38,692 bases of DNA. Origin: Herbinix sp. (lineage in GTDB: Bacteria; Bacillota; Clostridia; Lachnospirales; Lachnospiraceae). The position numbers and the translations under genes were made by a program. This document shows positions 2,224 through 36,423 of this stretch, one piece after another (the first letter of the stretch is position 1; the number at the start of each line of letters is the position of its first letter). The stretch lies in assembly GCA_029239235.1 (NCBI GenBank), contig JAQZBD010000039.1:1-38692 (forward strand), given 5' to 3'. A model generated the notes under the pieces. It saw nothing but the letters and a program-made list of their open reading frames with translations. It did not search any database and had not been told where the DNA came from.

Positions 2224-2288
2224 GTGTCGGATGAGAATTATGCTTTTCTATAATTCGGGCTAACTTCCTCAACACCAAATGATTGTTA
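2224..2288 (+). repeat. dispersed hairpin repeat, degenerate copy F
   Basis: This copy has a hairpin GAATTAT / ATAATTC (2235-2241 with 2250-2256) and a tail CACCAAATGATTGTTA ending at 2288 that matches the other copies. Unusually, GTGTCGGATG at 2224-2233 is the reverse complement of the CATCCGACAC core found in the others, so it looks like a rearranged or composite copy. Confidence 0.5.
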
Positions 2289-2447
2289 AGATTAAAATTT
2301 AATAAATTTTATGGTGACTTCTTTATTAAAAGCTGATACAATGTTGTTGCTACAGGGATTTTGCTAAATTTGAAGCGAATTTCAAGACGATCGCAATAGA
2401 AATACACGCGATCCGCCAGAACTGCAGTTACTGAACAATCATCCTTT

Positions 2448-2490
2448 GTCATGATATCTATTTTTATTTCTGATATCATGACTTTTATTT
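2448..2490 (+). terminator. perfect 11-bp inverted repeat with T-rich tail
   Basis: GTCATGATATC (2448-2458) pairs perfectly with GATATCATGAC (2472-2482); ACTTTTATTT follows. It could end a long folD transcript. The loop (13 nt) is itself T-rich, so the call as a terminator is moderate. Confidence 0.5.
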
Positions 2491-2507
2491 CCGCGTAAGA
2501 AAGTGAG

Positions 2508-2535
2508 TATGAACCTACTAACTTATTAGTTCATA
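2508..2535 (+). promoter_or_regulatory. small hairpin in rimO upstream region
   Basis: TATGAAC (2508-2514) faces TTAGTTCATA (2526-2535), with an inner CTAA/TTAG pairing and a bulge. It lies 50 nt before the rimO start. Function unknown. Confidence 0.3.
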
Positions 2536-2585
2536 ACAGTAATGCAGTTTACAGATTTATTTTAAATAGAAGAATGGAGATTTAT

Positions 2586-3911
2586 ATGAACATATTTTTT
2601 GTTTCTCTGGGGTGCGACAAGAATCTTGTAGACAGCGAGAATATGCTTGGTATCCTGCATGAAAATGGATATCGAATTATTAATGAAGAAGCGAAAGCAG
2701 ATATTATTATCGTTAATACCTGTTGTTTTATCAATGATGCGAAACAGGAGAGTATTCAGACCATCCTTGAAATGGCTGAGTATAAAAAGACAGGCTCCTG
2801 TAAAGCACTCATTGTAACCGGATGTCTTGCAGAGCGTTATAAAGAGGAAATCTTAAGTGAAATTCCAGAAGTGGATGCCCTGCTTGGAACCTCCAGCTTT
2901 GATGGAATCATGAAAGTCGTAGAGGGAATTCTGGGCGGCGAACAGCAAGCTGTATTCGAGGAACTGGATCGTCTTCCTAGCGTCAGCGGAAAACGTATGC
3001 TTACCTCAGGCAGCTATAGTGCATATCTTAAAATAGCAGAAGGCTGCGATAAGCATTGCACCTATTGCATCATTCCGCAGGTACGCGGTAATTTCAGAAG
3101 TGTTCCTCTGGACGCACTGCTGAAGGAAGCAAGCTATCTGGCAGAACAAGGAGTAAAGGAACTCATTCTGGTTGCACAGGAAACAACCTTATATGGTAAA
3201 GATTTATCCGGTGAAAAGGAATTACCAAAGCTGTTAGATGAACTATGTAAGATTGAAGGCATTGAGTGGATTCGTATTATGTATTGTTATCCGGAAGAAA
3301 TCACTGATGAGTTAATTGAAACCATGAAAAATCAGCCTAAGATTTGCCGTTATTTAGATATTCCCATTCAACATGCCTCAGATCGAATTCTAAAGCTGAT
3401 GGGTAGAAGAACGAATAAGGCTGACTTAATAAATATCATAACAAAGCTTCGAACTAATATGCCTGATATTGTCCTTAGAACCACCTTAATTACCGGCTTC
3501 CCTACAGAGACTCAGGAGGAGCATGAGGAGCTGATAGATTTTGTAAAAGAGATGAAATTTGAGCGTCTTGGTGTATTCACTTATTCAAAAGAAGATAATA
3601 CTCCGGCGGCTAAACTAAAGCCTCAGGTGACTGCAAAGGTAAAGAAGCAAAGACAGAAGGAGATCATGAAACTGCAGCAAAGTATAGTATTTGACCGTAC
3701 TGCTTCTCTGGAAAGCAATACCTATGATGTTTTGGTCGAGGGTAAGATTGCGGACGAGGAGAATGTATATATCGGCAGAACCTATATGGATGCGCCTAAT
3801 GTGGATGGATTTATCTTCCTCACTTCGAATTATGAACTAATCTCTGGTGATCTTGTAAAAGCTACCGTAACCGGAGCAAAGGGATATGATCTCTTAGGAG
3901 AAATCGTGTAA
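2586..3911 (+). CDS. rimO: ribosomal protein S12 methylthiotransferase
   Basis: RimO is a radical-SAM enzyme that adds a methylthio group to an Asp of ribosomal protein S12. The order is a UPF0004 domain (SLGCDKNLVDSE at the N-terminus, then VNTCCF and TGCLAERY, giving the three Cys of the auxiliary iron-sulfur cluster), a radical-SAM domain with CDKHCTYCIIP (CxxxCxxC) and a C-terminal TRAM domain. SLGCDKN is the RimO-type form; the related tRNA enzyme MiaB usually has a different start. The length of 441 residues is normal. An ATG at 2574 exists, but GGAGA at 2576-2580 overlaps it and is spaced correctly for 2586. pgsA follows after a 117-nt gap, the common Clostridia order rimO-pgsA-cinA. 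Confidence 0.95.
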   Translation: MNIFFVSLGCDKNLVDSENMLGILHENGYRIINEEAKADIIIVNTCCFINDAKQESIQTILEMAEYKKTGSCKALIVTGCLAERYKEEILSEIPEVDALLGTSSFDGIMKVVEGILGGEQQAVFEELDRLPSVSGKRMLTSGSYSAYLKIAEGCDKHCTYCIIPQVRGNFRSVPLDALLKEASYLAEQGVKELILVAQETTLYGKDLSGEKELPKLLDELCKIEGIEWIRIMYCYPEEITDELIETMKNQPKICRYLDIPIQHASDRILKLMGRRTNKADLINIITKLRTNMPDIVLRTTLITGFPTETQEEHEELIDFVKEMKFERLGVFTYSKEDNTPAAKLKPQVTAKVKKQRQKEIMKLQQSIVFDRTASLESNTYDVLVEGKIADEENVYIGRTYMDAPNVDGFIFLTSNYELISGDLVKATVTGAKGYDLLGEIV

Positions 3912-4028
3912 TGTCTGTTATGAATAAATGCATACAGATCACAGTAAGATAATAACAAGATGGACCAGCAAGCTGATTCACTTATTATAAAAAAAGTCAG
4001 TGCCTTAATGTGGCGGAATGGAGAAACT

Positions 4029-4568
4029 ATGAATTTACCGAATAAAATCACGATTTTTAGAGTAATCATGATTCCAATCTTTCTTGTATTTATGTTAATT
4101 CCAAGCATACCAAATGGAAAGTATATCGCTGCTGCTATTTTTATCATCGCTGCTCTAACTGACTTTTTGGATGGTTATCTTGCCCGCAAGTATCATCTGA
4201 TTACGAACTTCGGAAAGTTTATGGATCCACTTGCGGATAAACTTTTGGTTTGCAGTGCCTTAATTTGCTTCGTGCAATTGGAGCTGGTACCGGCATGGAT
4301 TGTTATTATCATTATAGCAAGAGAATTCATAATCAGCGGTTTTCGTTTGATCGCATCGGATAATGGAGTTGTTATTGCTGCCAGCTGGTGGGGAAAGATA
4401 AAAACGAATGTTCAAATGATTATGAGTGTTCTGTTGATTTTTCACCTGAATTTTTATGCTTTTCATGTGTTAGAGCAGATTTTCATATACCTGTCCGTGA
4501 TTTTAACAGTAGTATCCTTAATTGACTACATGATTAAGAACAAAGACATATTAAAAGATAAACATTAA
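4029..4568 (+). CDS. pgsA: CDP-diacylglycerol--glycerol-3-phosphate 3-phosphatidyltransferase
   Basis: This integral membrane enzyme condenses CDP-diacylglycerol with glycerol-3-phosphate, the first committed step to phosphatidylglycerol and cardiolipin. The CDP-alcohol phosphotransferase signature DG-x2-AR-x8-G-x3-D-x3-D is complete: DGYLARKYHLITNFGKFMDP plus the second Asp in LADK. About five hydrophobic segments are visible, and NLPNKITIFRV is the typical start. The length of 179 residues is standard. An upstream ATG (3960) would add 23 residues that do not fit the family; GGAG at 4019 supports ATG 4029. The stop is followed by a long imperfect hairpin. Confidence 0.93.
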   Translation: MNLPNKITIFRVIMIPIFLVFMLIPSIPNGKYIAAAIFIIAALTDFLDGYLARKYHLITNFGKFMDPLADKLLVCSALICFVQLELVPAWIVIIIIAREFIISGFRLIASDNGVVIAASWWGKIKTNVQMIMSVLLIFHLNFYAFHVLEQIFIYLSVILTVVSLIDYMIKNKDILKDKH

Positions 4569-4573
4569 ATAAT

Positions 4574-4663
4574 AAAACACTATTTGATCTACATTTTGCT
4601 CATGACAAGTGAATCGGCGAGCAGATTCATCTTGTTTGGAAATGTATGAAAGGATAGTGTTTT
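4574..4663 (+). repeat. 90-nt imperfect hairpin between pgsA and cinA
   Basis: The outer arms AAAACACTAT (4574-4583) and ATAGTGTTTT (4654-4663) pair perfectly. Inside them ACATTT pairs with AAATGT, and ACAAG-TGAATC pairs with GATTCATCTTGT with one bulge. The stems are nested, so nearly the whole gap folds into one rod. It could be a terminator, a processing site or a small mobile-type inverted repeat. Confidence 0.55.
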
Positions 4664-4714
4664 TCAAATATTAATTAAAATATCATGTCACAGCTATGGC
4701 AGACGGGAGGATTT

Positions 4715-5971
4715 ATGGTTGTTGAATTAATCAGTGTAGGAACAGAGCTTTTATTAGGAAACATAGTAAATACGAATGCTAATTATCTTTCTCAGAAATG
4801 TGCAGAATTGGGTTATTCCCTCTATTATCAAATTACAGTTGGGGATAATGATGGCAGAGTATGTGAGGTATTAAAATCTGCCCTGGAGCGTTCTGATATT
4901 ATCATTTTAACAGGCGGACTTGGACCTACCCAGGATGATATGACGAAAGAGGCTGTTGCTAAAGTATTTGGAAAAGATCTAGTGATGGATGAACCATCCA
5001 GAAAACGAATTGAAGAGTATTTCCAGTTCCGATTTAAGGGGAATCCTTTGAATAATGCAGTAACTCAGAATAATTGGAAGCAGGCACTTAAAATTGACGG
5101 TTGTATCGTGCTTGACAATGATAATGGCACAGCCCCCGGTTATATTGTGGAAGAAAACGGGAAAGCAGCCATCCTATTACCGGGACCTCCTTCCGAAATG
5201 ATACCTATGTTTGAAACTCATATCATTCCTTATTTGCAAAAGAAGCAGAACAAGGTCTTCATCTCCTCCATGGTTAAAATATGCGGTATCGGTGAAAGCA
5301 AAGCTGAGACTGATATCCTTGATCTGATAGAGCAGCAGACGAATCCAACCATCGCTCCCTATGCGAAGAGCGGAGAGGTACATTTTCGGGTAACAGCGGC
5401 TGCTGATCACGAAGAAGAGGGCAGAAATCTAATTGCACCGGTGGTAGAAGAGCTGTATCGACGTTTTGGTGATAATATCTACTCCACCGAGGAAAGTGAA
5501 ACCCTGGAGTCAGTGGTTGTAAAGCTCCTTCAGGAACACAATCTAACGGTTGCAACAGCCGAATCCTGTACCGGCGGCTTGTTAACCGGAAGACTGGTGA
5601 ATGTGCCAGGAGTTTCAGGTCTGTTAAAGGAAGGCTTTATCACATATTCCAACGAAGCGAAGATGAAATATCTGGGCGTGAAAGAAGAAACCTTAAAAAA
5701 TTACGGTGCAGTAAGTGAGCAAACTGCAAGGGAAATGGCCGTTGGAGTAGCTGCAGCCTCTGGCTCCAATACAGCTCTTGCCATTACCGGTATTGCCGGA
5801 CCGGAAGGCGGAACTCCTGAGAAACCGGTGGGTCTTGTGTACATTGGCTGTCTCGTGAATGGTGAAACTACCGTTAGGGAATATCGCTTGAAAGGCAATC
5901 GCGCAAAGGTAAGAGAGCTAAGTGTCATCTTTGCACTGGATTTATTAAGAAGAAGACTCCTCCTATTGTAG
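4715..5971 (+). CDS. cinA: CinA-family nicotinamide-nucleotide amidase / competence-damage protein
   Basis: CinA proteins combine an N-terminal molybdopterin-binding-like (COG1058, ADP-ribose pyrophosphatase) domain with a C-terminal nicotinamide mononucleotide deamidase domain, in pyridine-nucleotide salvage. The N-terminal half shows SVGTELLLGNIVNTNA, LTGGLGPTQDDMTKE and LPGPPSEM. The C-terminal half shows ATAESCTGGLLTGRL, YSNEAKMKYLGV and ITGIAGPEGGTPEKPVGLVY. Both domains look intact over 418 residues. The start at 4715 is set by GGGAGG at 4705-4710; the longer frame from 4685 has no such site. In many Clostridia recA follows cinA directly; here it is about 15 kb away. Confidence 0.94.
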   Translation: MVVELISVGTELLLGNIVNTNANYLSQKCAELGYSLYYQITVGDNDGRVCEVLKSALERSDIIILTGGLGPTQDDMTKEAVAKVFGKDLVMDEPSRKRIEEYFQFRFKGNPLNNAVTQNNWKQALKIDGCIVLDNDNGTAPGYIVEENGKAAILLPGPPSEMIPMFETHIIPYLQKKQNKVFISSMVKICGIGESKAETDILDLIEQQTNPTIAPYAKSGEVHFRVTAAADHEEEGRNLIAPVVEELYRRFGDNIYSTEESETLESVVVKLLQEHNLTVATAESCTGGLLTGRLVNVPGVSGLLKEGFITYSNEAKMKYLGVKEETLKNYGAVSEQTAREMAVGVAAASGSNTALAITGIAGPEGGTPEKPVGLVYIGCLVNGETTVREYRLKGNRAKVRELSVIFALDLLRRRLLLL

Positions 5972-6023
5972 ATGTTAAATCCACCGCAAAATAACAAAAA
6001 ATTGTACTCATAATAACATATGA

Positions 6024-6051
6024 TTGACACAGTTATGTCCTATTGTAAAAT
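6024..6051 (+). promoter_or_regulatory. vegetative promoter before the lipoprotein gene
   Basis: TTGACA (6024-6029), 16 nt, TAAAAT (6046-6051). This is a close match to the sigma-A consensus and lies about 130 nt upstream of the lipoprotein ATG. Confidence 0.55.
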
Positions 6052-6179
6052 TACAAGAGATTGGATTAAGAGATAATCACTTCCAAATACTGATTATATT
6101 TTAATTCACTTTTGGGGAAGAAAATAATTTCTTTCAGATCAATTTTTACAATCCGCCAAAGCGGTAAATGGAGGTTATT

Positions 6180-6848
6180 ATGAAGCAAGGTAGCAGATTA
6201 TTTATTATGATGATTATTCTGGTTGGAATGTTACTTCTTACCGGCTGTGATAAAATTAACTTTTCGACCTTTCAGGCATCGAAAGAAGAAACAAATGAAG
6301 AGACTACAACGACAGATGAGGATTCTGAAAGCTCTAAGGACGAAAAAGATATTACTAATGTGAATGGTTCAAAGGATGAGACTAATAAAAGTTCTGAGGA
6401 TACTGAGGAAGATTCAGGTGAGGCTAGTAATCAGACGCCGACTCCCTCCTCCATACAGCCCTCAGAGAACATTGATCTTCCTGTCTATACGGTTAACGCA
6501 ACTTCCGGGGATGTGGAGCCGGTAACAGCCGCGATTCCTAAGAGTGATAAGTTAAGCCCAGAGCTAATCGTGGATACAGTGGTAGAGTCCCTGGCGGATC
6601 AGTCCATCATTGTAGGAGTCAAAACAGTAACTACGAAAGATGATACTGTTATTGTTAATTTTACAAAGGATAATCCTCCCTCTAAAAATCAGGGCTCAGG
6701 CTATGAAGGTGCTATTTTGAATGCTTTCGCACAAAGTCTCTTAGACAATTTGGATGACTATCACAAAATAATTTTCCATATTGATGATAAGGCATATATA
6801 AGCGGAGTTTATGAATATGGCATTGACGAAGTGTATCTGCAGGAATAA
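6180..6848 (+). CDS. GerMN-domain-like lipoprotein
   Basis: The N-terminus has a lipoprotein signal peptide: positive residues, a hydrophobic core (LFIMMIILVGMLLL) and the lipobox LLTGC, so the mature protein is probably anchored to the outside of the membrane. Residues about 30-100 are a low-complexity linker rich in Glu, Asp, Ser and Thr. The last 120 residues (LPVYTVNATSGDVEP, IVNFTKDNP, YEGAILNAFAQSLLDNL) resemble the GerMN fold found in spore germination and sporulation lipoproteins. The match is by pattern, so the role in spores is an inference. The start at 6180 follows GGAGG at 6171; 222 residues. It is a single-gene unit with its own promoter and terminator. Confidence 0.7.
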   Translation: MKQGSRLFIMMIILVGMLLLTGCDKINFSTFQASKEETNEETTTTDEDSESSKDEKDITNVNGSKDETNKSSEDTEEDSGEASNQTPTPSSIQPSENIDLPVYTVNATSGDVEPVTAAIPKSDKLSPELIVDTVVESLADQSIIVGVKTVTTKDDTVIVNFTKDNPPSKNQGSGYEGAILNAFAQSLLDNLDDYHKIIFHIDDKAYISGVYEYGIDEVYLQE

Positions 6849-7242
6849 GCCTTAGTACGAAGAGAAAACTCAAATTAATAATTGTATTAGAAAGAATGAT
6901 ACGGTAACAAGTTGAAACAGTAACTGCTTCATTTTCTAAATGATTCAATAAAGGCTGCGTTGTTATTGCGACGCAGCTTTCGTTTATGGGTTTTAGCAAA
7001 ACAAGAGAAGCTATTGATTATAATTCGGAAGTCATAGTTATAATAGCAATAAAGTTATATTCGACAATTGGATGATTTTATGATATCTTAATACAGGTGA
7101 AAAAGTGAATGTAATTCAATAAAGAATATTTAATAAATGATAAATACAATGCGATTAGATATACTAATTAGAGATTAGTTTTTTCTCTAATAACAGAAAG
7201 ATATCGTATTGTTTCTATTTAGATACAGATATGGAGGAAGCT
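6849..7242. other. intergenic stretch with terminator
   Basis: A gap of 394 nt. It holds the terminator at 6951-6985. The rest is AT-rich; I see no ORF, repeat or clear promoter pair. Confidence 0.55.
6951..6985 (+). terminator. intrinsic terminator of the lipoprotein gene
   Basis: GGCTGCGT pairs with ACGCAGCT across a 10-nt loop, followed by TTCGTTT. The tail has an interrupting CG, so termination may be partial. Confidence 0.6.
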
Positions 7243-8484
7243 ATGAGTAAGGTATATGTTATCGGAGGCGGTGCGGCCGGAATGCTTGCAGCGATTGCTG
7301 CAGCTAGAAATGGACACAAGGTAGTATTGCTGGAGAAAAATGAAAAATTAGGCAAGAAACTTTTTATTACAGGAAAGGGTAGGTGTAATCTTACAAATGC
7401 CTGCGATAGGGAAGAGTTCTTTGAGCAGATCGTCACCAATCCGAAATTCTTATACCGTGCCTATCATTCCTTCAGTAATTACGATGCTATGAATTTCTTT
7501 GAGGAAATAGGTTTGCCTATTAAAACAGAGAGGGGTAACCGTGTTTTTCCGGAATCCGATAAATCCTCTGATGTTATAGGGGTATTAAAACGAGAACTGG
7601 ATAGACAAGGAGTAGATATTCGCTATAAATGTGAGGTTGCTAAGATATTAGTAAAGGATGGCAGCTTTTATGGTGTTCAATTGAAGAATTCCGGTGAAGA
7701 GCTATATGGAGATGATGTGATCATCTGTACCGGTGGTCTTTCCTACCCTTTAACAGGTTCCACAGGAGATGGCTTTAAATATGCAAAAGCTATGGGACAT
7801 ACCGTCACTGATATGTATCCTTCTCTGGTTCCGATTCATGTAAAAGAGCCTTATGTAAAGGAATTGATGGGGTTATCCTTAAAAAATATTGAGATCATCA
7901 TTACCGCCGGAAATAAAGCGATTTATCGGGATTTCGGGGAGTTGTTATTTACTCATTTCGGGGTCAGCGGCCCGGTTATCCTTAGTGCCAGCAGCTATAT
8001 AATTCCTCATCTTGCTAAGAAGGAAGCGCTGGAACTTAGTATAGATTTGAAGCCTGCACTGTCGATTGAACAATTGGATGCCAGAATATTAAGAGATTTT
8101 GAAGAATTCAAGAATAAACAATTCAAGAATTCATTGGAACGCCTATTGCCAAATAAATTAATTGATGTTATCATTCGACTTAGTGATATTGATCCGGAAA
8201 AGAAAGTAAATTCCATTACAAAGGAAGAACGCCTTGGCTTAGCTGCACTTTTGAAAAACCTAAAGCTTCATATTACGAAGCTCAGTGATTACGGACAGGC
8301 TGTTATAACAAAGGGTGGAATTAATGTCAAGGAGGTCAATCCCTCTACGATGGAATCCAAGCTCGTGAAGCATGTTTATTTTGCGGGAGAGGTACTGGAT
8401 CTGGATGCCTTGACCGGAGGCTATAATCTACAGGTAGCTTGGTCAACGGGATATTTGGCTGGAAACTCCATCGAATGTTATTAA
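7243..8484 (+). CDS. YhiN/HI0933-type FAD-dependent flavoprotein
   Basis: This belongs to the HI0933-like flavoprotein family, often annotated as aminoacetone-oxidase-like or NAD(P)/FAD-dependent oxidoreductase; the physiological substrate is not established. VYVIGGGAAGMLAAIAAARNG near the N-terminus is the FAD dinucleotide site, GKGRCNLTNAC is the family signature, CTGGLSYPLTGSTGDG lies mid-protein, and FAGEVLDLDALTGGYNLQ is the C-terminal FAD motif. Length 413 residues, normal. GGAGG at 7233-7237 supports ATG 7243 rather than 7231. In Clostridia this gene is often followed by cmk and ispH-rpsA, as here, hinting at a shared transcript. Confidence 0.9.
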   Translation: MSKVYVIGGGAAGMLAAIAAARNGHKVVLLEKNEKLGKKLFITGKGRCNLTNACDREEFFEQIVTNPKFLYRAYHSFSNYDAMNFFEEIGLPIKTERGNRVFPESDKSSDVIGVLKRELDRQGVDIRYKCEVAKILVKDGSFYGVQLKNSGEELYGDDVIICTGGLSYPLTGSTGDGFKYAKAMGHTVTDMYPSLVPIHVKEPYVKELMGLSLKNIEIIITAGNKAIYRDFGELLFTHFGVSGPVILSASSYIIPHLAKKEALELSIDLKPALSIEQLDARILRDFEEFKNKQFKNSLERLLPNKLIDVIIRLSDIDPEKKVNSITKEERLGLAALLKNLKLHITKLSDYGQAVITKGGINVKEVNPSTMESKLVKHVYFAGEVLDLDALTGGYNLQVAWSTGYLAGNSIECY

Positions 8485-8615
8485 GGGAATGTTATTTATT
8501 AAGGAAATGTTATTAAGAATAAAATAGATTCATACCTGAAATAGAAAAGGCGTTTTAGCCAACGATAGATAAAATATGAAATAAGGTACCATAAGTGGAA
8601 AGGCAGGAATTAGTA

Positions 8616-17400: not shown

Positions 17401-17994
17401 AATGCTATCGAGGACTTTAAGAATCTGTCCGAGCGATATGAATTCCTCCATGTTCAGCGAGAGGATTTAATAAAGGCTGAGGAAGCCCTTCTACAAATCA
17501 TTGGTGAGCTTGATTCGGAGATGAGAATACAGTTTGCTGAGAAATTCAAAGCCATTAAGGATCAGTTTGATATCGTATTTAAAGAACTCTTTGGCGGTGG
17601 TAAGGCGGATCTGGAATTAACGGAAAGCGAAGATATTCTGGAGGCAGGTATTCGAATTAATGCACAGCCACCGGGCAAAAAGCTTCAGAATATGATGCAG
17701 CTATCCGGTGGAGAGAAAGCTCTGACGGCCATATCCCTCTTATTTGCAATTCAGAACTTAAAGCCTTCTCCTTTCTGTCTATTGGATGAGATTGAGGCGG
17801 CTCTGGATGATTCGAACGTAAATCGGTTCGCAAAGTATTTACATAAACTGACTAAGGATACACAGTTTATTATTATCACCCATCGTCGGGGAACGATGGC
17901 AGCTGCGGATATCTTATATGGTATCACAATGCAGGAAAAGGGAGTGTCAACTCTTGTATCAGTAAGTTTGATTGAGAACGAGCTAGATAAATAG
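14434..17994 (+). CDS. smc: chromosome segregation protein SMC
   Basis: A condensin ATPase that organises and segregates chromosomes as a dimer with ScpA and ScpB. N-terminal head: [30 protein letters not shown] (Walker A at residues 32-39). Two long coiled coils rich in Glu, Lys and Leu run about 170-500 and 670-1010 and flank a hinge ([13 protein letters not shown] to [10 protein letters not shown]). The C-terminal head has [18 protein letters not shown] (signature) and [13 protein letters not shown] (Walker B). Length 1186 residues, normal. GGGAG at 14422 sets ATG 14434. ftsY follows, with one dispersed repeat in between. Confidence 0.97.
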   Translation: [1186 protein letters not shown]

Positions 17995-18069: not shown

Positions 18070-18129
18070 TGTGAATTATGGAAAAATTTAATTCACATTC
18101 GACATGGTCTTGCGGCCAAATGATTGTTA
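18070..18129 (+). repeat. dispersed hairpin repeat, copy E (before ftsY)
   Basis: TGTGAATTA (18070-18078) pairs perfectly with TAATTCACA (18089-18097); then ATTCGACAT, a second stem GGTC-TTGC-GGCC (18106-18117), and the tail AAATGATTGTTA. It ends 26 nt before the ftsY ATG. Confidence 0.65.
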
Positions 18130-18155: not shown

Positions 18156-19085
18156 ATGGGAGACAAACCAGGTTTTTTTGGACGATTAGTTCAAGGTCTT
18201 ACTAAGACCAGAGATAATATTGCACATGGATTTGATGCAATCTTTAGCGGATTTTCCAGCATTGATGACGATTTTTATGAGGAGTTGGAAGAAACTTTGA
18301 TTATGGCTGATCTTGGAATTAATACAACCACCGCCATTATTGAAGATTTAAGAATGAAGGTAAAAGAGAATAAGATTAAGGAGCCGGAGGAATGCCGCGT
18401 CCTTTTGATGAACAGTATGAAGGAGCAGATGAAGCTGGAGGACAATGCTTATGATTTTGAAACCAGAAAATCCGTTGTTCTTTTAATCGGAGTAAATGGC
18501 GTTGGTAAGACAACCTCTGTAGGTAAGCTTGCCGGTCAGATGAAAGACCAGGGGAAAAGAGTAATGGTTGCGGCTGCGGATACCTTCCGTGCAGCTGCCA
18601 TTGAACAGCTGACGGAATGGGCGCATCGTGCAAATGTAGACATTATCGCTCAGAAAGAAGGCTCTGATCCTGCCGCTGTTATCTATGATGCAGTTACAGC
18701 AGCCAAGGCTCGTAATGTTGATGTTCTGCTATGCGATACCGCTGGACGCTTGCATAACAAGAAAAATCTTATGGAAGAGTTAAAGAAGATTGATCGTGTT
18801 ATCGAGAGGGAGTATCCGGAAGCTTATCGTGAAACCTTAGTTGTACTAGATGGTACCACCGGACAGAACGCTATGGTTCAGGCTAAGGAATTCAGTGAGG
18901 TAGCCGATGTTACTGGTATCGTGTTAACAAAGTTGGATGGAACGGCAAAGGGCGGTATTGCTATTGCAATTCAAGCCGAGCTTGGCATTCCTGTAAAATA
19001 CATTGGAATCGGTGAAAAAATCGATGATCTCCAAAGATTTCATGCGGAAGAATTCGTAGATGCCTTGTTCCAGAAGAACGAGTAA
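18156..19085 (+). CDS. ftsY: signal recognition particle receptor FtsY
   Basis: FtsY is the membrane-associated GTPase that docks SRP-ribosome complexes. A short basic N-terminal part leads to the helical N domain (DDFYEELEETLIMADLGI) and the G domain: GVNGVGKTTSVGKLA (G1), DTFRAAAIEQLTEWA, DTAGRLHNKKNLMEEL (G3), TKLDGTAKGG (G4). 309 residues. The frame is open to 18078, but GGAG at 18145 and homology place the start at 18156. The acidic A domain of proteobacterial FtsY is absent, as usual in Firmicutes. Its usual neighbour ylxM-ffh lies 10.7 kb downstream. Confidence 0.96.
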   Translation: MGDKPGFFGRLVQGLTKTRDNIAHGFDAIFSGFSSIDDDFYEELEETLIMADLGINTTTAIIEDLRMKVKENKIKEPEECRVLLMNSMKEQMKLEDNAYDFETRKSVVLLIGVNGVGKTTSVGKLAGQMKDQGKRVMVAAADTFRAAAIEQLTEWAHRANVDIIAQKEGSDPAAVIYDAVTAAKARNVDVLLCDTAGRLHNKKNLMEELKKIDRVIEREYPEAYRETLVVLDGTTGQNAMVQAKEFSEVADVTGIVLTKLDGTAKGGIAIAIQAELGIPVKYIGIGEKIDDLQRFHAEEFVDALFQKNE

Positions 19086-20623: not shown

Positions 20624-20658
20624 AGATTACAGGAACTAAGTACACGTTCATGTAATCT
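20624..20658 (+). repeat. hairpin 2 of the recA upstream region
   Basis: AGATTACAGGAAC (20624-20636) pairs with GTTCATGTAATCT (20646-20658), 12 of 13 positions, with a 9-nt loop. The GATTACAGGAAC arm is identical to that of hairpin 1 while the right arms differ, which suggests duplication followed by drift. Confidence 0.7.
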
Positions 20659-20659
20659 A

Positions 20660-20810
20660 GATGCAAGGTGCAAAAGCAATACGGCCTCCTATAATCGGGA
20701 TGCACGACGCAAAAACAATACAGCCTCCTATAAACGGGATGCACGGTGCATAAGCTATACAGCTTCTTTTGATCGGGATGCACGGCGTATGTGCAGCACC
20801 TTTTATCGAG
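20660..20810 (+). repeat. 39-nt tandem repeat, three full units plus a partial
   Basis: Units at 20660-20698, 20699-20737 and 20738-20776 have exactly the same length. Each starts GATGCA, contains ATAC(A/G)GC(C/T)TC and ends in (A/G)A(A/T)CGG-like sequence. A diverged fourth unit runs 20777-20810. Units 1 and 2 differ at only a few positions. Unit 3 contains the small palindrome ATGCACGGTGCAT. Confidence 0.8.
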
Positions 20811-26783: not shown

Positions 26784-26795
26784 CTCATTACAAAA

Positions 26796-26867
26796 TTAAC
26801 ATGATGGATCTCGTATGAATTAACATGATAGATCTCATATGAATTAATATAATGCAATTCGAATGAA
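26796..26867 (+). repeat. 24-nt tandem repeat, three units
   Basis: Units at 26796-26819, 26820-26843 and 26844-26867. The first two share TTAACATGAT-(A/G)-GATCTC-(A/G)-TATGAA; the third is diverged (TTAATATAATGCAATTCGAA...). They lie just before the promoter of the ABC operon. Confidence 0.75.
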
Positions 26868-29649: not shown

Positions 29650-29687
29650 CCTATGACGCCTTGATTTAAAGGCTATCGATGAGGTAT

Positions 29688-29848: not shown

Positions 29849-29856
29849 GAATTTTT

Positions 29857-30231
29857 ATGAAGCAGAATGAGACGCAGATTGATAAGCTGGACGAAATTGT
29901 ATTACAGTCTATTTTATATGATTTCTATGGAGAATTACTAAGCGATCATAAAAAGCAAATCTTTGAGGATTATGTATTAAACGACTTATCCCTAAGTGAA
30001 ATAGCCACAGAACAGGGCATGAGCAGGCAGGGTGTTTACGATATTGTGAAGCGTTGTACTCTGGAGCTTAAGAGCTATGAAGCAAAGCTTGGCCTAATGA
30101 AGAGATTTCAGACCATTAAAGATAAAGTAGCCAATATGAAAGAGATCGTTTCTGATATCTCCGAGACAGGGGAGATGAAACACCTGAATGATATTTCAAC
30201 CTTGGCGGATGATATTTTAAAGGAATTATAG
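29857..30231 (+). CDS. ylxM: YlxM-family SRP-associated helix-turn-helix protein
   Basis: YlxM is a small protein encoded before ffh in many Firmicutes and linked to SRP function in streptococci. It resembles sigma-factor region 4: ILYDFYGELLSDHKKQIFEDYVLNDLSLSEIATEQGMSRQGVYDIVKR, a helix-turn-helix. The 124 residues end in a helical, acidic tail. ffh starts 63 nt later. A regulatory role on its own promoter is possible because of the inverted repeat there, but unproven. Confidence 0.88.
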   Translation: MKQNETQIDKLDEIVLQSILYDFYGELLSDHKKQIFEDYVLNDLSLSEIATEQGMSRQGVYDIVKRCTLELKSYEAKLGLMKRFQTIKDKVANMKEIVSDISETGEMKHLNDISTLADDILKEL

Positions 30232-30294
30232 ACGAAAAGACAGATATCCTTTTCTTGAATACTTAAATCACCTAGGGTGATGGAAAGGAGTATT

Positions 30295-31647
30295 ATGGCA
30301 TTTGAAAGTTTATCCGATAAGCTGCAGAATATATTTAAAAACCTCAAAGGCAAAGGCCGACTTTCCGAGGCAGATGTAAAGGTGGCTTTAAAGGAAATTA
30401 AGATGGCTTTATTAGAAGCTGACGTTAACTTTAAGGTAGTAAAGAATTTTGTAAATACAATTCAAGAGCGTGCAGTTGGACAGGATGTAATGGGGAGCCT
30501 CACTCCCGGTCAGATGGTAATTAAGATTGTTAACGAAGAAATGGTTCGATTACTTGGTGATGAGACCGTTGAACTTCAGTTAAAGCCCACCAATGAGATC
30601 TCCGTAATAATGATGTGCGGTCTTCAAGGTGCCGGTAAAACAACTACCGTTGCAAAGCTTGCAGGTAAATTAAAATCTAAGGGTAGACGACCTTTACTCG
30701 TTGCCTGTGATATTTACAGACCCGCAGCGATTGATCAATTAAAAATTAACGGTGAGAAACAGGGTGTTCCTGTATTTGCAATGGGTGATAAGCACAAGCC
30801 CCTTAATATTGCAAAAGCAGCAATTGAGCATGCTGAGAAGAATAGCTTTAATACAGTGATTCTCGATACTGCAGGACGGCTTCACATTGATGAAGCAATG
30901 ATGGAGGAGCTGCAGGAGATTAAGAATAATCTTACGGTGCATCAGACAATATTAGTAGTAGATGCTATGACCGGTCAGGATGCGGTAAATGTATCCGAAA
31001 TGTTTAATGATAAGCTTTCCATCGACGGTGTTATTTTGACTAAGTTAGATGGTGATACCAGGGGCGGTGCGGCCTTATCAATTCGTGCCGTAACCGGAAG
31101 ACCCATATTGTATGCAGGTATGGGTGAAAAGCTGTCAGATCTGGAACAGTTTTATCCGGATCGTATGGCCTCCCGTATCCTTGGAATGGGAGATATTCTT
31201 ACCTTAATTGATAAGGCACAGGCTGAATTTGATGAAACCAAAGCCAGAGAAATGGAACGTAAGCTCAAGAAGAACGAATTTGACTTTAACGATTTCCTGG
31301 AGCAGATGCAGCAAGTAAAGAAAATGGGTGGCATTGGCGATATGCTAAATATGCTGCCAGGAATGAACAAACAGCTTAAGAATGTAGAGATTGATGATAA
31401 TGCATTATCTAAGCCGGAAGCAATCATTAATTCGATGACTAAAACAGAACGTTCCAACCCGGATATTATTAATCCATCCCGTAAAAAGAGAATTGCCGCC
31501 GGAGCAGGTGTGGACATCAGTGAAGTAAATGCGCTGGTGAAGCAATTTGAACAGTCGAAAAAGATGATGAAGCAATTTTCCGGTATGATGGGTGGCAAAG
31601 GCAAACGCGGCGGAATGGGTAAATTCCGTATGCCCTTTGGATTTTAG
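30295..31647 (+). CDS. ffh: signal recognition particle protein Ffh
   Basis: Ffh binds SRP RNA and signal sequences and docks on FtsY. N domain at residues 1-95 (FESLSDKLQNIFKNLKGKGRLSEADV), G domain with MCGLQGAGKTTTVAKLA, DIYRPAAIDQLK, DTAGRLHIDEAMMEEL and TKLDGDTRGGAALS, then the Met-rich M domain (FLEQMQQVKKMGGIGDMLNMLPGMNK ... FSGMMGGKGKRGGMGKFRMPFGF). 450 residues, normal. GGAG at 30287 sets ATG 30295. It is co-directional with ylxM and rpsP. Confidence 0.97.
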   Translation: MAFESLSDKLQNIFKNLKGKGRLSEADVKVALKEIKMALLEADVNFKVVKNFVNTIQERAVGQDVMGSLTPGQMVIKIVNEEMVRLLGDETVELQLKPTNEISVIMMCGLQGAGKTTTVAKLAGKLKSKGRRPLLVACDIYRPAAIDQLKINGEKQGVPVFAMGDKHKPLNIAKAAIEHAEKNSFNTVILDTAGRLHIDEAMMEELQEIKNNLTVHQTILVVDAMTGQDAVNVSEMFNDKLSIDGVILTKLDGDTRGGAALSIRAVTGRPILYAGMGEKLSDLEQFYPDRMASRILGMGDILTLIDKAQAEFDETKAREMERKLKKNEFDFNDFLEQMQQVKKMGGIGDMLNMLPGMNKQLKNVEIDDNALSKPEAIINSMTKTERSNPDIINPSRKKRIAAGAGVDISEVNALVKQFEQSKKMMKQFSGMMGGKGKRGGMGKFRMPFGF

Positions 31648-31829
31648 GCACACTTATTAGAATAAGCTAATCCATAAGAATAGCCTGCAATGCTTTCGCT
31701 TGTAAGTTATGATTGCTTGTTTTTAATAATATATGCACGAGGCACCGGTAACGGTAAGCTTGTGTGATTCATATCAAGTAAGTCAGCTTTGATTTGCTTG
31801 TATAAAATTTTTAAGGAGGTGAATTTAAA

Positions 31830-32072
31830 ATGGCAGTAAAGATTAGATTAAAGAGAATGGGACAGAAAAAGGCTCCTTTCTATAGAATCGTTGTATCTGA
31901 TTCCAGAACACCTAGAGATGGTAGATTCATCGAGGAAATCGGTACCTATGATCCAACTAAAAATCCAAGTGCTTTCAACGTAAATGCAGAATCTGCAAAG
32001 AAGTGGTTAGCAAATGGTGCACAGCCAACAGATACAGTAGGTAAAATCTTCAAGCACGCTGGTATTCTATAA
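31830..32072 (+). CDS. rpsP: ribosomal protein S16
   Basis: A small-subunit ribosomal protein of 80 residues: [41 protein letters not shown] is the classic start. AAGGAGGTGA at 31811-31820 is a full-strength Shine-Dalgarno. A gap of about 180 nt after ffh contains no clear terminator. The KH protein gene follows after 21 nt. Confidence 0.98.
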
Positions 32073-32093
32073 TAAATATCGGAGGTAATGAGA

Positions 32094-32324
32094 ATGAAGG
32101 AATTAGTCGAAGTAATCGCTAAATCACTCGTTGATCATCCCGATGAGGTTGTAGTTACGGAAAAGGAAACCGATAAGGCAATTGTTGTGGAATTAAAAGT
32201 CGCTTCTGAAGATATGGGAAAGGTAATCGGCAAACAAGGTCGTATTGCAAAATCCATTCGTACCGTAGTAAAAGCAGCCGCAACAAAGGATGATAAGAAG
32301 GTAATAGTTGAGATTTTACAATAA
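32094..32324 (+). CDS. khpA: KH-domain RNA-binding protein (YlqC/KhpA family)
   Basis: A 76-residue single KH domain with the GxxG-type loop in KVIGKQGRIAKSIRTVVKAAA. KhpA works with KhpB in RNA binding and cell-shape control in pneumococcus, and the gene sits after rpsP in most Firmicutes. Two ATGs compete: 32088 and 32094. GGAGG at 32081-32085 spaces correctly (8 nt) only for 32094. Confidence 0.92.
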   Translation: MKELVEVIAKSLVDHPDEVVVTEKETDKAIVVELKVASEDMGKVIGKQGRIAKSIRTVVKAAATKDDKKVIVEILQ

Positions 32325-32390
32325 GTAAATGCAACTGCAAAGTTTCCTTTACAGAATGGGGAAGCTGTCTGTTATGTCCCATGAGATTAA

Positions 32391-32543
32391 TTTTTCATAA
32401 TGACATAGTAGAGAGCTTCTTTTTTCTAAGTTAATCGTAGTGGAAGAATTATTCTAAGTTATGACATAGTAGAAAACTTATTTACAAAGTTATAACATAA
32501 CTTAGAGCTCATTTTTCTAAGTTATATCATAGTTTAGAGTTAA
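32391..32543 (+). repeat. degenerate tandem repeat, five units of 29-32 nt
   Basis: Units start near 32391, 32420, 32452, 32481 and 32512. The shared pattern is TTTTTCTAAGTTAT, then a segment like GACATAGTAGA. TCTAAGTTAT appears almost unchanged in units 3 and 5. AT-rich, so boundaries are approximate. Confidence 0.6.
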
Positions 32544-32572
32544 ATTTATGAAGAGAATATAACAGGATAACG

Positions 32573-32634
32573 TGTGAAAATTAGAAACATTTTCACATCC
32601 GACATTGGCAAGGCTTCTAGTCGAATGATCGTTC
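32573..32634 (+). repeat. dispersed hairpin repeat, copy A
   Basis: TGTGAAAAT (32573-32581) pairs perfectly with ATTTTCACA (32589-32597); then TCCGACA, a short GGC-TTCTA-GTC stem (32612-32622) and a tail CGAATGATCGTT. CGAC also pairs with GTCG across the middle. Confidence 0.7.
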
Positions 32635-32635
32635 G

Positions 32636-32697
32636 TGTGAATTATTAAAACACATTTCACATCCGACACCCCGTCGTCTCACGCCAAATGATCGTTA
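32636..32697 (+). repeat. dispersed hairpin repeat, copy B
   Basis: TGTGAA (32636-32641) pairs with TTCACA (32656-32661); then TCCGACACCCCGTCGTCTC, a short CGT-CTC-ACG stem and the tail CCAAATGATCGTTA. It follows copy A head to tail with a one-base gap. Confidence 0.7.
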
Positions 32698-32803
32698 CTG
32701 AGAAAATAGATGATAGAGAAGGTGAAGATGCCGCTTTAGCTGTAATACAAGTTTAAAAAGCTAGTAGAATTTCAAATGGCATCTCAAAGGAATGGAGAAT
32801 ATT

Positions 32804-33310
32804 ATGGATAATTATTTAAGAGTAGGTGTGATATCCTCCACCCATGGAATTAAGGGTGAGGTAAAGGTGTTCCCAACAACTGATGATGTAAATCGTTTTA
32901 AGGAATTGAAGACTGTGTTCTTAGATACAGGAAAAGAGCTGCTTTCTATGGAAATAGAAGGCGTTAAATTCTTTAAGCAAATGGCTATTCTAAAGTTTAA
33001 AGGAATTGACGATATTAATGACGTAGAAAAATACCGTGGAAAGGATCTGCTTATAGACCGAGAGAACGCGGTTAAATTAGAGGAAGGTGAATATTTCATC
33101 TTTGACCTGATTCATTCCGAAGTTATAACGGATGAGGGCGAGAAACTGGGCTCCTTGGCAGAAATCATTTCAACGGGAGCGAATGATGTTTATGTCGTGA
33201 AAACAGATGAAGGAAAAGAGATTTTGATACCCTCCATTAAGGAATGCGTCCTCGATGTGAATGTTGAGCATAAAAAAATCACGGTGCACTTACTAAACGG
33301 CTTAAGATAG
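32804..33310 (+). CDS. rimM: 16S rRNA processing protein RimM
   Basis: RimM binds S19 and helps mature the 30S head. N-terminal RimM domain: [32 protein letters not shown]-barrel C-terminal domain: [37 protein letters not shown] and [28 protein letters not shown]. 168 residues, normal. GGAGAAT at 32794 supports ATG 32804. trmD follows after a gap of about 107 nt with a stem-like inverted repeat. Confidence 0.95.
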
Positions 33311-33324
33311 TGCTTCCTTGATTA

Positions 33325-33383
33325 GAAGACCATTCCACCTATACGTAAATTCTATTGCTTGAAATTAACGTGGAAGGATCTTC
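33325..33383 (+). repeat. imperfect inverted repeat between rimM and trmD
   Basis: GAAGACCATTCCAC (33325-33338) faces GTGGAAGGATCTTC (33370-33383), paired except for three adjacent positions. No T-run follows. Possible leader stem of trmD. Confidence 0.45.
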
Positions 33384-33417
33384 TTCCTACTGATTACCAT
33401 GTAGATTGGAGAAAACT

Positions 33418-34194
33418 ATGAATTTTCATGTACTAACGCTTTTTCCGGAAATGATTCAGCAGGGGCTGAATACAAGTATTACCGGCAGAGCAATTGATAA
33501 GGGACTGATTAATGTCAATACAATTAATATCAGAGATTTCAGCGAGGATAAACATAATAGAGTCGATGACTATCCCTACGGCGGAGGTGCCGGGATGGTA
33601 ATTCAAGCCGAACCGGTGTACAAGGCCTATGGATATTTGGCAAATCATATTAAGCTTTCGAAGGAAGATACCACTGATTATAAGAAGCCCCGGGTGATTT
33701 ATGTAACACCACAGGGCAGCATCTTTAATCAAGGTATGGCTCAGGCGCTGGCTCAGGAAGAGGATGTGATTTTCCTATGCGGACACTATGAGGGTATTGA
33801 TGAACGTGTCCTGGATATGATTGTTACAGATAACATATCCATTGGTGATTATGTCCTTACCGGAGGAGAGCTTCCAGCCATGGTTATGATTGATGCGATA
33901 TCCAGACTGGTTCCGGGCGTCCTAAATAATGAAGTATCCTCCGAATTTGAATCCCTGCATGGAAATTTATTAGAATATCCGCAATATACAAGGCCGGAGA
34001 CCTTTATGGGAATGAAAGTACCTGAAGTGCTTTTGTCCGGGCATCATGCTAAAATCGAAGCCTGGAGGAGGGAACAGTCCATCCTAAGAACCTATGAACG
34101 CCGCCCGGATTTATTGGAGAAGGCTGATTTAACGGATCAGGAGGGTGAATTACTCACCAAGCTGATTTTTCAAAAGAATTATGATGTTTATTGA
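33418..34194 (+). CDS. trmD: tRNA (guanine-N1)-methyltransferase
   Basis: TrmD methylates G37 of tRNAs next to the anticodon and prevents +1 frameshifts. It is a SPOUT enzyme with a trefoil knot. Motifs: [78 protein letters not shown] and the C-terminal [30 protein letters not shown]. 258 residues. The frame opens with TTG 33406, but GGAG before 33418 gives the family start. Confidence 0.97.
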
Positions 34195-34335
34195 TTTCGT
34201 GTGTAACAAAAAAGTACTTGCATTATATGACAGTTTATGTTAAAGTAAGTAGTTGTGAGATGGGATGGTCCTCTGATGCATGGTAAATATGCCAAATCGT
34301 GTCAAGAACATCTAAATATGAATGGAGGTCACAAA

Positions 34336-34683
34336 ATGAACGATATCATTAAGAGTATTGAAGCTGAGCAGTTAAAAGCTGAAGTAACTAGCTTCAACGT
34401 AGGCGATACTGTAAAAGTATACGCTAAAGTAAAAGAAGGTAACCGTGAAAGAGTCCAGGTATATGAAGGTACCGTACTGAAAAGACAGAACGGTGGTTCA
34501 AGAGAAACCTTTACTGTTAGAAAGACTTCTAACGGAATCGGTGTAGAAAAGACTTGGCCGCTTCATAGTCCTGTTATCGAAAAGATCGAAGTAATTAGAC
34601 GTGGTAAAGTAAGAAGAGCTAAGTTGTTCTATTTACGTGATAGAGTAGGTAAGAGAGCTAAGGTTAAAGAAGTAATCAGATAA
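34336..34683 (+). CDS. rplS: ribosomal protein L19
   Basis: A 50S protein at the subunit interface; 115 residues. [34 protein letters not shown] is the family N-terminus, followed by [25 protein letters not shown] and [44 protein letters not shown]. The reading frame extends to 34255, but GGAGG at 34324 sets ATG 34336. The 140-nt leader between trmD and rplS might carry a ribosomal-protein leader, but no stable structure stands out. It ends in a terminator. Confidence 0.97.
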
Positions 34684-34690
34684 TACAACG

Positions 34691-34723
34691 AAGGGACAAT
34701 ACTTAAGCGATTGTCCCTTTTTT
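34691..34723 (+). terminator. intrinsic terminator after rplS
   Basis: AAGGGACAAT (34691-34700) pairs perfectly with ATTGTCCCTT (34710-34719), followed by TTTTTT. lepB therefore starts a separate or read-through unit. Confidence 0.9.
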
Positions 34724-34768
34724 AACACTAAATTATATCGGACAAACCTTGTTTGTTTTAATCAGGTA

Positions 34769-34825
34769 GTGTGAAAATAAAGAACAATTTTCACACCCGG
34801 CAGCCTTGCAGCCGAATAAACATTA
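34769..34825 (+). repeat. dispersed hairpin repeat, copy C (before lepB)
   Basis: GTGTGAAAAT (34769-34778) pairs perfectly over 10 bp with ATTTTCACAC (34787-34796). CGGC (34798-34801) pairs with GCCG (34811-34814), where copy A has CGAC/GTCG. The tail is diverged (AATAAACATTA). It ends 19 nt before the lepB start. Confidence 0.65.
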
Positions 34826-34843
34826 GGGAAAGAAGGGAAGAAG

Positions 34844-35452
34844 TTGGCAAGAAGAATGGAATATGATTTTGACCAAGAGAATAAGAAGTCTTTTAAAAAG
34901 AAAGTTCTGAGAGAAATATTAATTTGGAGTCTTCAAATTGCAGCGGTTATCTTCCTGGCATATTTCATTGTGTATTATGCTCTTGAAAAAACATCCATGG
35001 TAGGGGTCTCTATGGAAACCACTCTGAATGATGGAGATGAGATTATAATCAATAAAATTAATTACCGTATCTTAGATCCCACGCGATTCGATGTAATTGT
35101 ATTTAAGCAAAGCGGTAAAGAGCACAGTTATTATGATATTAAGCGAATTATCGGTTTACCCGGTGAAAAGCTTCAGATAAAAAATGAAAAGATATCTATT
35201 AATGGGGAAGTGATCGAGGACCTTGTAAACACTGACGTCATGAACAATTATGGTTTAGCGGATGAGGAAATCACTCTCGAAGAGAATGAATATTTTGTTC
35301 TTGGAGATAATCGTAACAACAGCGAAGATAGTCGCTTTGCCAGTGTTGGAACGATTCGAAGGGAAGAAATTGTCGGAAAGGCTTTTATAAGATTAAAACC
35401 CTTTAATTTTATCAATAAGCTAAATCTGAAAAAAGAAGAAAGCCTCAATTAG
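34844..35452 (+). CDS. lepB: signal peptidase I
   Basis: Membrane-bound serine/lysine protease that removes signal peptides from exported proteins. A single N-terminal transmembrane helix at residues 25-47 is followed by the nucleophile Ser56 in MVGVSM, the general-base Lys100 in DIKRIIGLPGE, and the GDNRNNSEDSR box. 202 residues. The frame begins with TTG 34844; ATG 34856 is a possible alternative (4 residues shorter). GGGAAG around 34835 fits TTG. A signal peptidase between rplS and rbgA is common in Firmicutes. Confidence 0.95.
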   Translation: MARRMEYDFDQENKKSFKKKVLREILIWSLQIAAVIFLAYFIVYYALEKTSMVGVSMETTLNDGDEIIINKINYRILDPTRFDVIVFKQSGKEHSYYDIKRIIGLPGEKLQIKNEKISINGEVIEDLVNTDVMNNYGLADEEITLEENEYFVLGDNRNNSEDSRFASVGTIRREEIVGKAFIRLKPFNFINKLNLKKEESLN

Positions 35453-35487
35453 GAGGAATCCTCTTTTCAGGAGAAAAATCCTCTTAT
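35451..35487 (+). repeat. Shine-Dalgarno palindromes at the truncated rbgA start
   Basis: AGGAGGAATCCTC contains GAGGA/TCCTC pairing with one-base loop; AGGAGAAAAATCCTC a few bases later repeats the motif; AATCCTCTT occurs twice (35458-35466 and 35478-35486). The AGGAGG overlaps the lepB stop and is the expected ribosome site of rbgA. Recognisable RbgA sequence starts at 35483. Confidence 0.65.
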
Positions 35488-36316
35488 CGAGCTGGTAGAT
35501 GCACGAATTCCATATTCCAGTAAAAATCCTGATATTGATGCATTAGCAAAGAACAAATCCAGAGTTATACTTTTAAATAAATCTGATATGGCAGACCCAC
35601 GGTATAATACTGCCTGGAAGGAATATTTTGAAAAACAGGGTTATTTTGTATCCTTAGTAAATTCTAAAAGCGGAGCCGGAGTAAAGCAGGTTCAGGATAT
35701 TGTAAATAAAGCCTGTGAAGCTAAAATCGAACGGGATCGCCGTAAAGGTATCCTGAACAGACCTGTCCGCGCCATGATCGTAGGAATTCCCAATGTAGGA
35801 AAGTCCACCTTCATCAATAGCTTTGTAGGTAAGGCTTCTACAAAAACAGGGAACAAACCTGGCGTCACAAAAGGAAAGCAATGGATTCGTCTGAATAAAA
35901 ATACGGATTTGCTGGATACTCCTGGTATCCTATGGCCTAAATTCGAGGATCAAATGGTTGGATTGAGGTTAGCACTCATTGGTTCCATCAACGATAATAT
36001 CATTGATACAACCACAATGTCCTTGGAACTGATCTTAATCCTCAGCAGGTATTATCCAGATGTTTTGGCCACTCGTTATGGTTTAGAAATCACATCGAAA
36101 GCGGAAACTCAAAAGGATGCTCTGGAAATCTTGGAGACTGTGGCCATCAAGAGATCCTGTCTTTTAAAAGGTGGCTTGCCTGATATTGACCGTGCGGCTG
36201 CTTTCTTAATCGATGATTTGAGAAGTGTAAAACTGGGAAATATCACATTGGAGTTTCCAACTGTGACAACGGAGGATACAGAGCCTAGCAGTTCTGCGCC
36301 ACTCGATACAGAATAG
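35483..36316 (+). CDS. rbgA: ribosome biogenesis GTPase RbgA (YlqF), N-terminus missing
   Basis: RbgA is a circularly permuted GTPase needed for late 50S assembly. The recognisable part starts with LIELVDARIPYSSKNPDIDAL, then ILLNKSDMADP (G4), GIPNVGKSTFINSFVGKAS (G1), GNKPGVTKGKQWI (G2) and LLDTPGILWPKF (G3), and ends in the C-terminal helical domain. The usual opening (IQWFPGHMAKT...) and the start codon are absent: the frame runs straight out of the lepB stop (TAG at 35450-35452) with no ATG, GTG or TTG before ATG 35588, which lies inside G4 and cannot be the true start. About 25 codons are missing. An assembly or sequence gap is likelier than a dead gene. The 277 visible codons are otherwise intact. 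Confidence 0.85.
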   Translation, partial: LIELVDARIPYSSKNPDIDALAKNKSRVILLNKSDMADPRYNTAWKEYFEKQGYFVSLVNSKSGAGVKQVQDIVNKACEAKIERDRRKGILNRPVRAMIVGIPNVGKSTFINSFVGKASTKTGNKPGVTKGKQWIRLNKNTDLLDTPGILWPKFEDQMVGLRLALIGSINDNIIDTTTMSLELILILSRYYPDVLATRYGLEITSKAETQKDALEILETVAIKRSCLLKGGLPDIDRAAAFLIDDLRSVKLGNITLEFPTVTTEDTEPSSSAPLDTE

Positions 36317-36362
36317 ATTATGAAACAAGTAACAACAGATGAGGATCCCCCTAGTGTAAGTA

Positions 36363-36423
36363 ATGTGAAAGAAAGAGCCTTTCACATCCGATACCCCGCG
36401 GTCTCGTGGCCAAAGGGTCGTTA
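36363..36423 (+). repeat. dispersed hairpin repeat, copy D (before rnhB)
   Basis: ATGTGAAAG (36363-36371) pairs perfectly over 9 bp with CTTTCACAT (36379-36387); then CCGATACCCCGC, the stem GGTC-TCGT-GGCC (36400-36411) and the tail AAAGGGTCGTTA. It ends 16 nt before the rnhB ATG. Confidence 0.7.

Follow-up and report, generated by a model that had tools for sequence, protein, structure and literature searches.

A dispersed two-hairpin repeat between genes of Herbinix, a probable family of short non-autonomous mobile elements

The stretch of Herbinix sp. DNA studied here (contig JAQZBD010000039.1, positions 1 to 38,692; its full 38,692 nucleotides are called the window) carries five copies of a short dispersed repeat that lies between genes and folds into two hairpins. 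The repeat is a genuine new family, and we give a probability of about 60% to its consisting of short, non-autonomous mobile elements of the same general kind as bcr1 or REP, with the two-hairpin fold retained as they spread. A mobile repeat is favored over a conserved regulatory RNA because its distribution is patchy, two empty sites are precise, units form chains, sites turn over between two species, and no common function is evident among the 20 downstream proteins read. The family is so far known from one genus and has a fold without a matching Rfam model; without this analysis, that fold would pass in each operon for a candidate riboswitch.

Ten copies, half of them from the window and half from the rest of its genome (G000; 4.97 Mb, 345 contigs), served to build a covariance model (R1) that was later refined (R2). 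At E ≤ 1, R1 gave 81 matches in this genome, so the dispersed repeat described in the initial annotation was real and larger than claimed. As all five window copies are in the training sets of both models, the independent evidence is the remaining genome matches. The pattern TTCACATCCGACA, with at most one mismatch, occurred at 41 places in G000 against 3 for the reversed control. We also looked for the opposite outcomes, namely no further copies, or copies in random orientation without compensatory changes, and saw neither.

At E ≤ 0.001, four of 61 genomes matched R1, the window's own included, and all belong to one genus: 62 copies in G000 (under stricter filters), 73 in G023, two in G029 and one in G003. 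The 30 other genus genomes and the 27 from outside the genus gave no match at this threshold. In an order-wide sample, R2 matched one of 392 genomes, the window's own, and none of the 391 others, with 13 candidates scored per genome, so that weak matches may be lost; the sample includes at least two genus genomes among the rows listed. A strict pattern search of 84,980 species genomes, a collection that may omit records near the window's genome, returned 17 stretches, all in the metagenome-assembled genome "Clostridiales bacterium isolate AS05jafATM_90", and the same pattern had no match in viral contigs. The view that this is not a described family held: Rfam 15 gave no match in the window at the gathering score, and by E-value none at a unit in 8 unit-bearing and 18 further loci, where the matches elsewhere were a T-box and chance-level ones. 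The T-box leader (109.7 bits) lies near a chained hairpin unit in G003 (L218, 1123–1355, minus strand). No paper on this repeat was found in the open-licence literature searched, a coverage that mostly excludes subscription papers.

The unit is about 61 nt long (about 60–66), runs from (G)TGTGAA to GTTA and is nearly fully paired, with a P1 hairpin followed by a longer P2 hairpin. P1 consists of TGTGAA/TTCACA and a variable upper part, while P2 combines an inner stem (GGCC/GGCC and variants) with an outer helix in which C-G-A-C-A pairs with T-G-[unpaired]-T-C-G. The second small stem of the initial annotation thus exists, though merely as the tip of the longer P2 helix; the TCCGACA "linker" and the TGATCG "tail", taken there to be unpaired, are joined by the P2 outer helix and clearly covary. 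R1 does not contain the outer helix, so the alignments it yielded were produced without any fitting to that helix. On alignment A5 (117 matches, 115 of them distinct, from 83 of the 119 sources searched, E ≤ 1e-5), pairing in this helix was 92.3%, a figure that fell to 51.4% or less once partners were slid, and doubly changed cells numbered 40, compared with 15.0 for shuffles; its pairs switched between A-U and G-C (61/27) and between G-C and U-A (83/8). For the whole structure, pairing reached 94.6%, against at most 42.2% with partners slid, and 95 doubly changed cells were counted against 35.1 in shuffles. The covariation proposed for the arms therefore stands, is seen in three helices and extends to one that had gone unnoticed. 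These cells are not independent events, since the copies share ancestry. Selection on RNA structure, as first proposed, is borne out as to covariation, but covariation is compatible with either RNA or single-stranded DNA as the folded molecule, and a mobile repeat is favored by several facts.

The comparison of G000 with G023 provided sites with and without units. At the first, a junction between two genes, G023 carries three units, the last internally deleted, with flanks of 3 and 16 nt, and the G000 junction consists of 19 nt without a unit. At the second, G023 has two units and G000 none, with a net flank change of zero; G000 lacks the TA there. Read from these alignments, whole units are inserted or lost at orthologous sites, at or near TA/TTA and with no extra bases; duplication of the TA and its belonging to the end of the unit would be equivalent and indistinguishable descriptions. 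The evidence for mobility from these two sites is comparative. Four window sites were alignable, and at none of them does G023 have a unit, as judged by eye; three G023 sites likewise have none in G000. Units end in TTA and usually lie directly 3' of TA or TTA: the outer left flank has T in 74/83% and A in 91/96% of cases in G000/G023, followed by the unit's first G in 83/89%, and the outer right flanks resemble GTRTGAAA. Targeting of hairpin loops was considered as a rule and rejected, as the joined flanks of 97 arrays paired no better than permuted ones (7.44 vs 7.49, mean of 60 permutations); two cases, L118 and L048, resemble insertion into a hairpin loop.

Logos, orientation and neighbor counts were based on copies of at least 38 bits, which are 61 of the 83 tabulated in G000 (from 85 matches) and 72 of the 77 tabulated in G023, with the copies L137–L139 of other genomes excluded. 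In G000 these copies make up 47 arrays, of which 35 are single, 10 double and 2 triple; G023 has 54 (40 single, 11 double, 2 triple and one of four), probably an under-count since several of its contigs stop within arrays. In about a quarter of the arrays, units abut head to tail at a spacing of 56–66 nt in G000 (14 pairs) and 60–64 nt in G023 (18 pairs). Adjacent units were on average more alike than others (identity 0.756 vs 0.659 in G000, 0.82 vs 0.752 in G023): 10 of the 32 pairs reached an identity of 0.89 or higher, and the remaining 22, at 0.56 to 0.85, were mostly no more alike than random pairs can be. The chains would fit both local duplication and repeated arrival at one site (or old copies).

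Of the 101 arrays, 10 overlap an open reading frame as called by a simple program, one of them, in the window, solely because of an alternative start for ftsY, and the left junction coincides exactly with the upstream stop codon in 14. Relative to both neighboring genes, 62 arrays are sense, 6 antisense to both, 23 mixed and 10 undetermined; the initial annotation had placed its copies in the same orientation as the genes, which is true of the five confirmed ones. By GC skew at third codon and intergenic positions, 79 arrays were inferred to lie on the leading strand, 11 on the lagging strand, and 11 were ambiguous. Where the gene pair is in tandem and the skew clear, 54 arrays were same-strand and leading, one same-strand and lagging, two opposite and leading, and three opposite and lagging. 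A check of 20-kb skew at loci chosen partly as exceptions found cases in both directions. Attributing the orientation to replication rather than transcription was abandoned, the two being inseparable with these counts.

For a mobile repeat, these observations suggest the following course. A trans-acting enzyme would recognize the folded strand and join the TTA end of the unit to a TTA-like target; as the unit itself ends in TTA, it would be its own target and chains could grow. The sense orientation and intergenic position may reflect leading-strand-biased insertion, the purging of harmful insertions, or both. Once transcribed into mRNA, the units would form hairpins unlike terminators, and any effect on mRNA stability or translation would be a by-product.

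Several observations weigh against a mobile repeat. No enzyme common to the carriers was found among matches to PF01797, PF07282, PF01548 and RVT_1, a search that did not extend to tyrosine or serine recombinases, Y2 or DDE transposases, and no longer version sharing the unit's ends came to light, although no systematic search was made. A third candidate empty site (site 1) is not clean because its flanks have diverged, and G000 and G023 share only ~80% identity in coding DNA, so that the alignments behind the empty sites are short. G023 has in common with G000 at least five of the latter's 47 arrays, as expected of a conserved regulatory element; flank alignments identified L011/L090, L021/L091+L098, L024/L096, L027/L107 and L014/L116, the last by its left flank. 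At these five sites, unit identity was 0.67–0.81 and the identity of the 60-nt left flank 0.75–0.95, hence some unit positions are old. An RNA function could explain the covariation equally. The covariation itself has softer spots: for the outer helix, the counts of doubly changed pairs and of pair types were reached by 67 and 164 of 500 shuffles, respectively; for all 85 matches in G000, 57 of 500 shuffles equaled the count of doubly changed pairs; and the consensus that RNAalifold proposed on its own for alignment A4 recovered only the four inner P2 pairs.

The alternative that survives best, possible if on balance doubtful, is a functional cis-acting RNA spread by selection, in which pairs of hairpins in operon mRNAs insulate genes, set mRNA decay or modulate translation. 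The covariation in three helices, the sense orientation and the shared sites are in keeping with it, as is a terminator scan in which the four units in 31600–37400 showed no terminator-like site (a stem, then a run of T). On the sense strand, G-T cells also outnumber A-C cells (110 vs 61, counted on the 62 best of 85 rows and the 76 best of 80), yet we do not take this as proof of RNA folding, because a leading-strand C-to-T bias predicts a G-T excess too and the replication strand could likewise account for the orientation. Against such a function, the distribution is patchy, and pairing falls in divergent copies, from 94% to 82% in G000 and from 98% to 91% in G023, in a ranking that itself uses structure. 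A reading of 20 downstream proteins, with no family search, showed no evident relation among them (RuvB, ATP synthase c, EtfB, MurE and a NifS-like protein by recognition, for example), and a common regulon is not indicated. A ribosome-binding site carried by the unit, for which the tails resembling AATGGAGGTTA were a candidate, was rejected: ATGGAGGTTA followed by ATG is common genus-wide (377 vs 85 for reversed controls in 34 genomes), and GTRTGAA stood upstream at 2 of 30 such loci read. Two type-1 copies of G029 (L138, 4001–4064; L139, 2735–2798) end in AATGGAGGTTA directly before a start codon and could supply a ribosome-binding site.

Other genus genomes contain units with different interiors, joined at CGTTA|GTRTGAA; examples are a three-hairpin unit of ~92 nt or more (G003, G010, G020, G024, G029) and one of 94 nt (G004). 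Of 21 places inspected by eye across seven genomes, 14 proved to be junctions of this kind and the remaining 7 did not. Other hairpin families that share the ends of the window repeat and are chained head to tail were noted at L184 and L185 (G029), L208, L220 and L225 (G004), and L214 and L227 (G010). These units might form a gene-less, cassette-like system, in which structurally unrelated hairpins share only the ends GTRTGAA...GTTA and one putative recombinase joins them, an idea that we hold tentatively and consider rather unlikely. If it were true, each species would build its own set of transcribed intergenic hairpins, in sense between the genes of operons; a junction common to unlike units makes a shared mobilizer testable.

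Movement as a REP-like or IS200/IS605-type element, in which a Y1 transposase would cut single-stranded hairpins 3' of TTA, is unlikely. It would suit the two hairpins, the unpaired P2 base, the strand bias, the short fixed 5' target repeated at the 3' end of the unit, the lack of terminal inverted repeats and of any duplication beyond TA, and the presence in G000 of three PF01797 matches, namely two full Y1 genes and a broken fragment; one full gene (contig C178) and the fragment (C338) are on contigs that also carry units, the other full gene being on C34. However, PF01797 had no match in G023, the genome with the most copies, in a draft 97% complete whose contigs break at arrays. At the G000 Y1 gene examined, moreover, CGTTA lies upstream and GTATGAA downstream, the reverse of the unit ends, and no unit-like ends were found; the foot of the repeat is (T/A)TAG rather than GTAG, with G in fourth place in 21% of G000 and 13% of G023 copies. 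The broken fragment is ~1.2 kb upstream of a unit (L016; position 3854 against 2514–2681). As to other transposase domains, PF07282 had one match in G000 and none in G023, and PF01548 gave only sub-cut-off matches in both.

Somewhat less likely still is an integron-like capture, by which a site-specific recombinase would join hairpin cassettes at a core CGTTA|GTRTGAA. The chaining of differently folded units at this junction in seven other genus genomes and the outer right flanks resembling GTRTGAA would agree with it. Yet the junction is not enriched genus-wide (68 vs 72 for the reversed control in 34 genomes), being clearly so only in G023 (28/1), G010 (12/2) and G000 (11/4), and marginally in a few others. 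Integron attC sites have an R' box GTTRRRY and an R'' box RYYYAAC; by inspection, the junction GTTAGTR misfits the former, and the start of the unit holds no RYYYAAC.

Insertion at the RNA level, by reverse splicing or retrotransposition, was suggested by the GTGTG (GUGUG) start, the sense bias and a G023 group II intron with a reverse transcriptase frame and D1–D4 RNA (L299, G023:C2:321861–322484; a second RVT_1 match there is short), but it is highly improbable, because group II introns end in AY, which the 3' TTA misfits, the base left unpaired in P2 is frequently T in G023, and the sole RVT_1 match of G000 (L300, G000:C157:12072–12635, 2.5e-12) lies inside a 1532-aa frame that seemingly holds other domains.

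Of the six copies claimed for the window, five were recovered, all on the plus strand, at 18070–18129, 32573–32634, 32636–32697, 34770–34825 and 36364–36423 (R2 scores computed with filters off; neighboring genes named by NCBIfam). The copy at 18070–18129 (R1 67.8 bits; R2 59.5 bits, E 1.8e-10) is between smc, which ends at 17994, and ftsY, with its ATG at 18156; its P1 is TGTGAATTA/TAATTCACA, its P2 CGACA...TGATTG with inner stem GGTC/GGCC, and its tail TTA. Upstream of rimM, 32573–32634 (R2 48.7 bits, E 3.3e-8) is the first of a head-to-tail pair; its inner P2 stem pairs poorly and it ends in CGTTC directly before the next unit, which follows after one G (32636–32697; R2 59.4 bits, E 1.9e-10) and differs in loop and inner stem. 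The nearest upstream frame, by the simple caller, ends 248 nt before this pair, with rpsP (31830–32072) farther upstream. In 34770–34825 (R1 59.5 bits; R2 35.2 bits, E 2.2e-5), downstream of trmD and an open reading frame at 34255–34683 and upstream of signal peptidase I, P1 is intact and P2 decayed, with several broken pairs. The fifth, 36364–36423 (R2 56.9 bits, E 6.3e-10), lies between ylqF (end 36316) and rnhB, with P1 TGTGAAAG/CTTTCACA and P2 CGATA...GGTCG. Three copies had been said to end 16–26 nt before a start codon: this is so for those at 18070 and 36364, and for that at 34770 hinges on TTG 34844 versus ATG 34856. The presence of units in such core operons (smc-ftsY, upstream of rimM, ylqF-rnhB) matters for annotation and for how operons tolerate hairpins.

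The sixth claimed copy, at 2224–2288 between folD and rimO, was no copy under either covariance model and is assigned no strand; it is at best rearranged or decayed. R1 gave a weak minus-strand match there (2195–2256, 25.5 bits, genome E 0.139), R2 none at E ≤ 5, and the site could not be aligned with G023. By eye, the plus strand has CCAAATGATTGTTA, a unit-like tail, and the minus strand TTCTCATCCGACAC and TTCTCATCCGACA. Elsewhere in the window, 20641–20787 holds a 69-nt direct repeat in three copies with 39-nt spacing, and 26794–26865 a 24-nt unit in three tandem copies.

Among known systems, the repeat resembles IS200/IS605 elements in its insertion 3' of a short fixed target, with no target duplication beyond TA and no terminal inverted repeats. 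The inverted ends of classical miniature inverted-repeat transposable elements are not found, as the GTGTGAA start and CGTTA end are, by inspection, not complementary. BOX repeats have a modular build. REP, BIME and REPIN sequences (PMC3733652, PMC8266576) are hairpin repeats found mostly between unidirectional or convergent genes and proposed to be non-autonomous transposable elements; likeness to them and their RAYT (TnpAREP) lies in the hairpins, the intergenic position and the proposed non-autonomy. REPs measure 20–40 bp, bear GTAG or CGTC at one end and, in many families, have units in opposite orientation, whereas the present unit has two hairpins, a (T/A)TAG foot in place of GTAG/CGTC, a head-to-tail order and no RAYT match in G023; among the tabulated matches, no opposite-strand units occur within 300 nt, against 32 head-to-tail neighbors, unlike the inverted pairing of BIMEs and REPINs. 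BOX and RUP of Streptococcus pneumoniae, likened here without sequence comparison, are likewise small interspersed repeats of a Gram-positive genome (PMC3049150). Repeats of the bcr1 type, from the Bacillus cereus group, appear in a PMC2267715 table as having a conserved structure; likened here by description, with no sequence comparison, they belong to repeats of 100–400 bp with another motif, while the present unit chains head to tail and ends in TTA.

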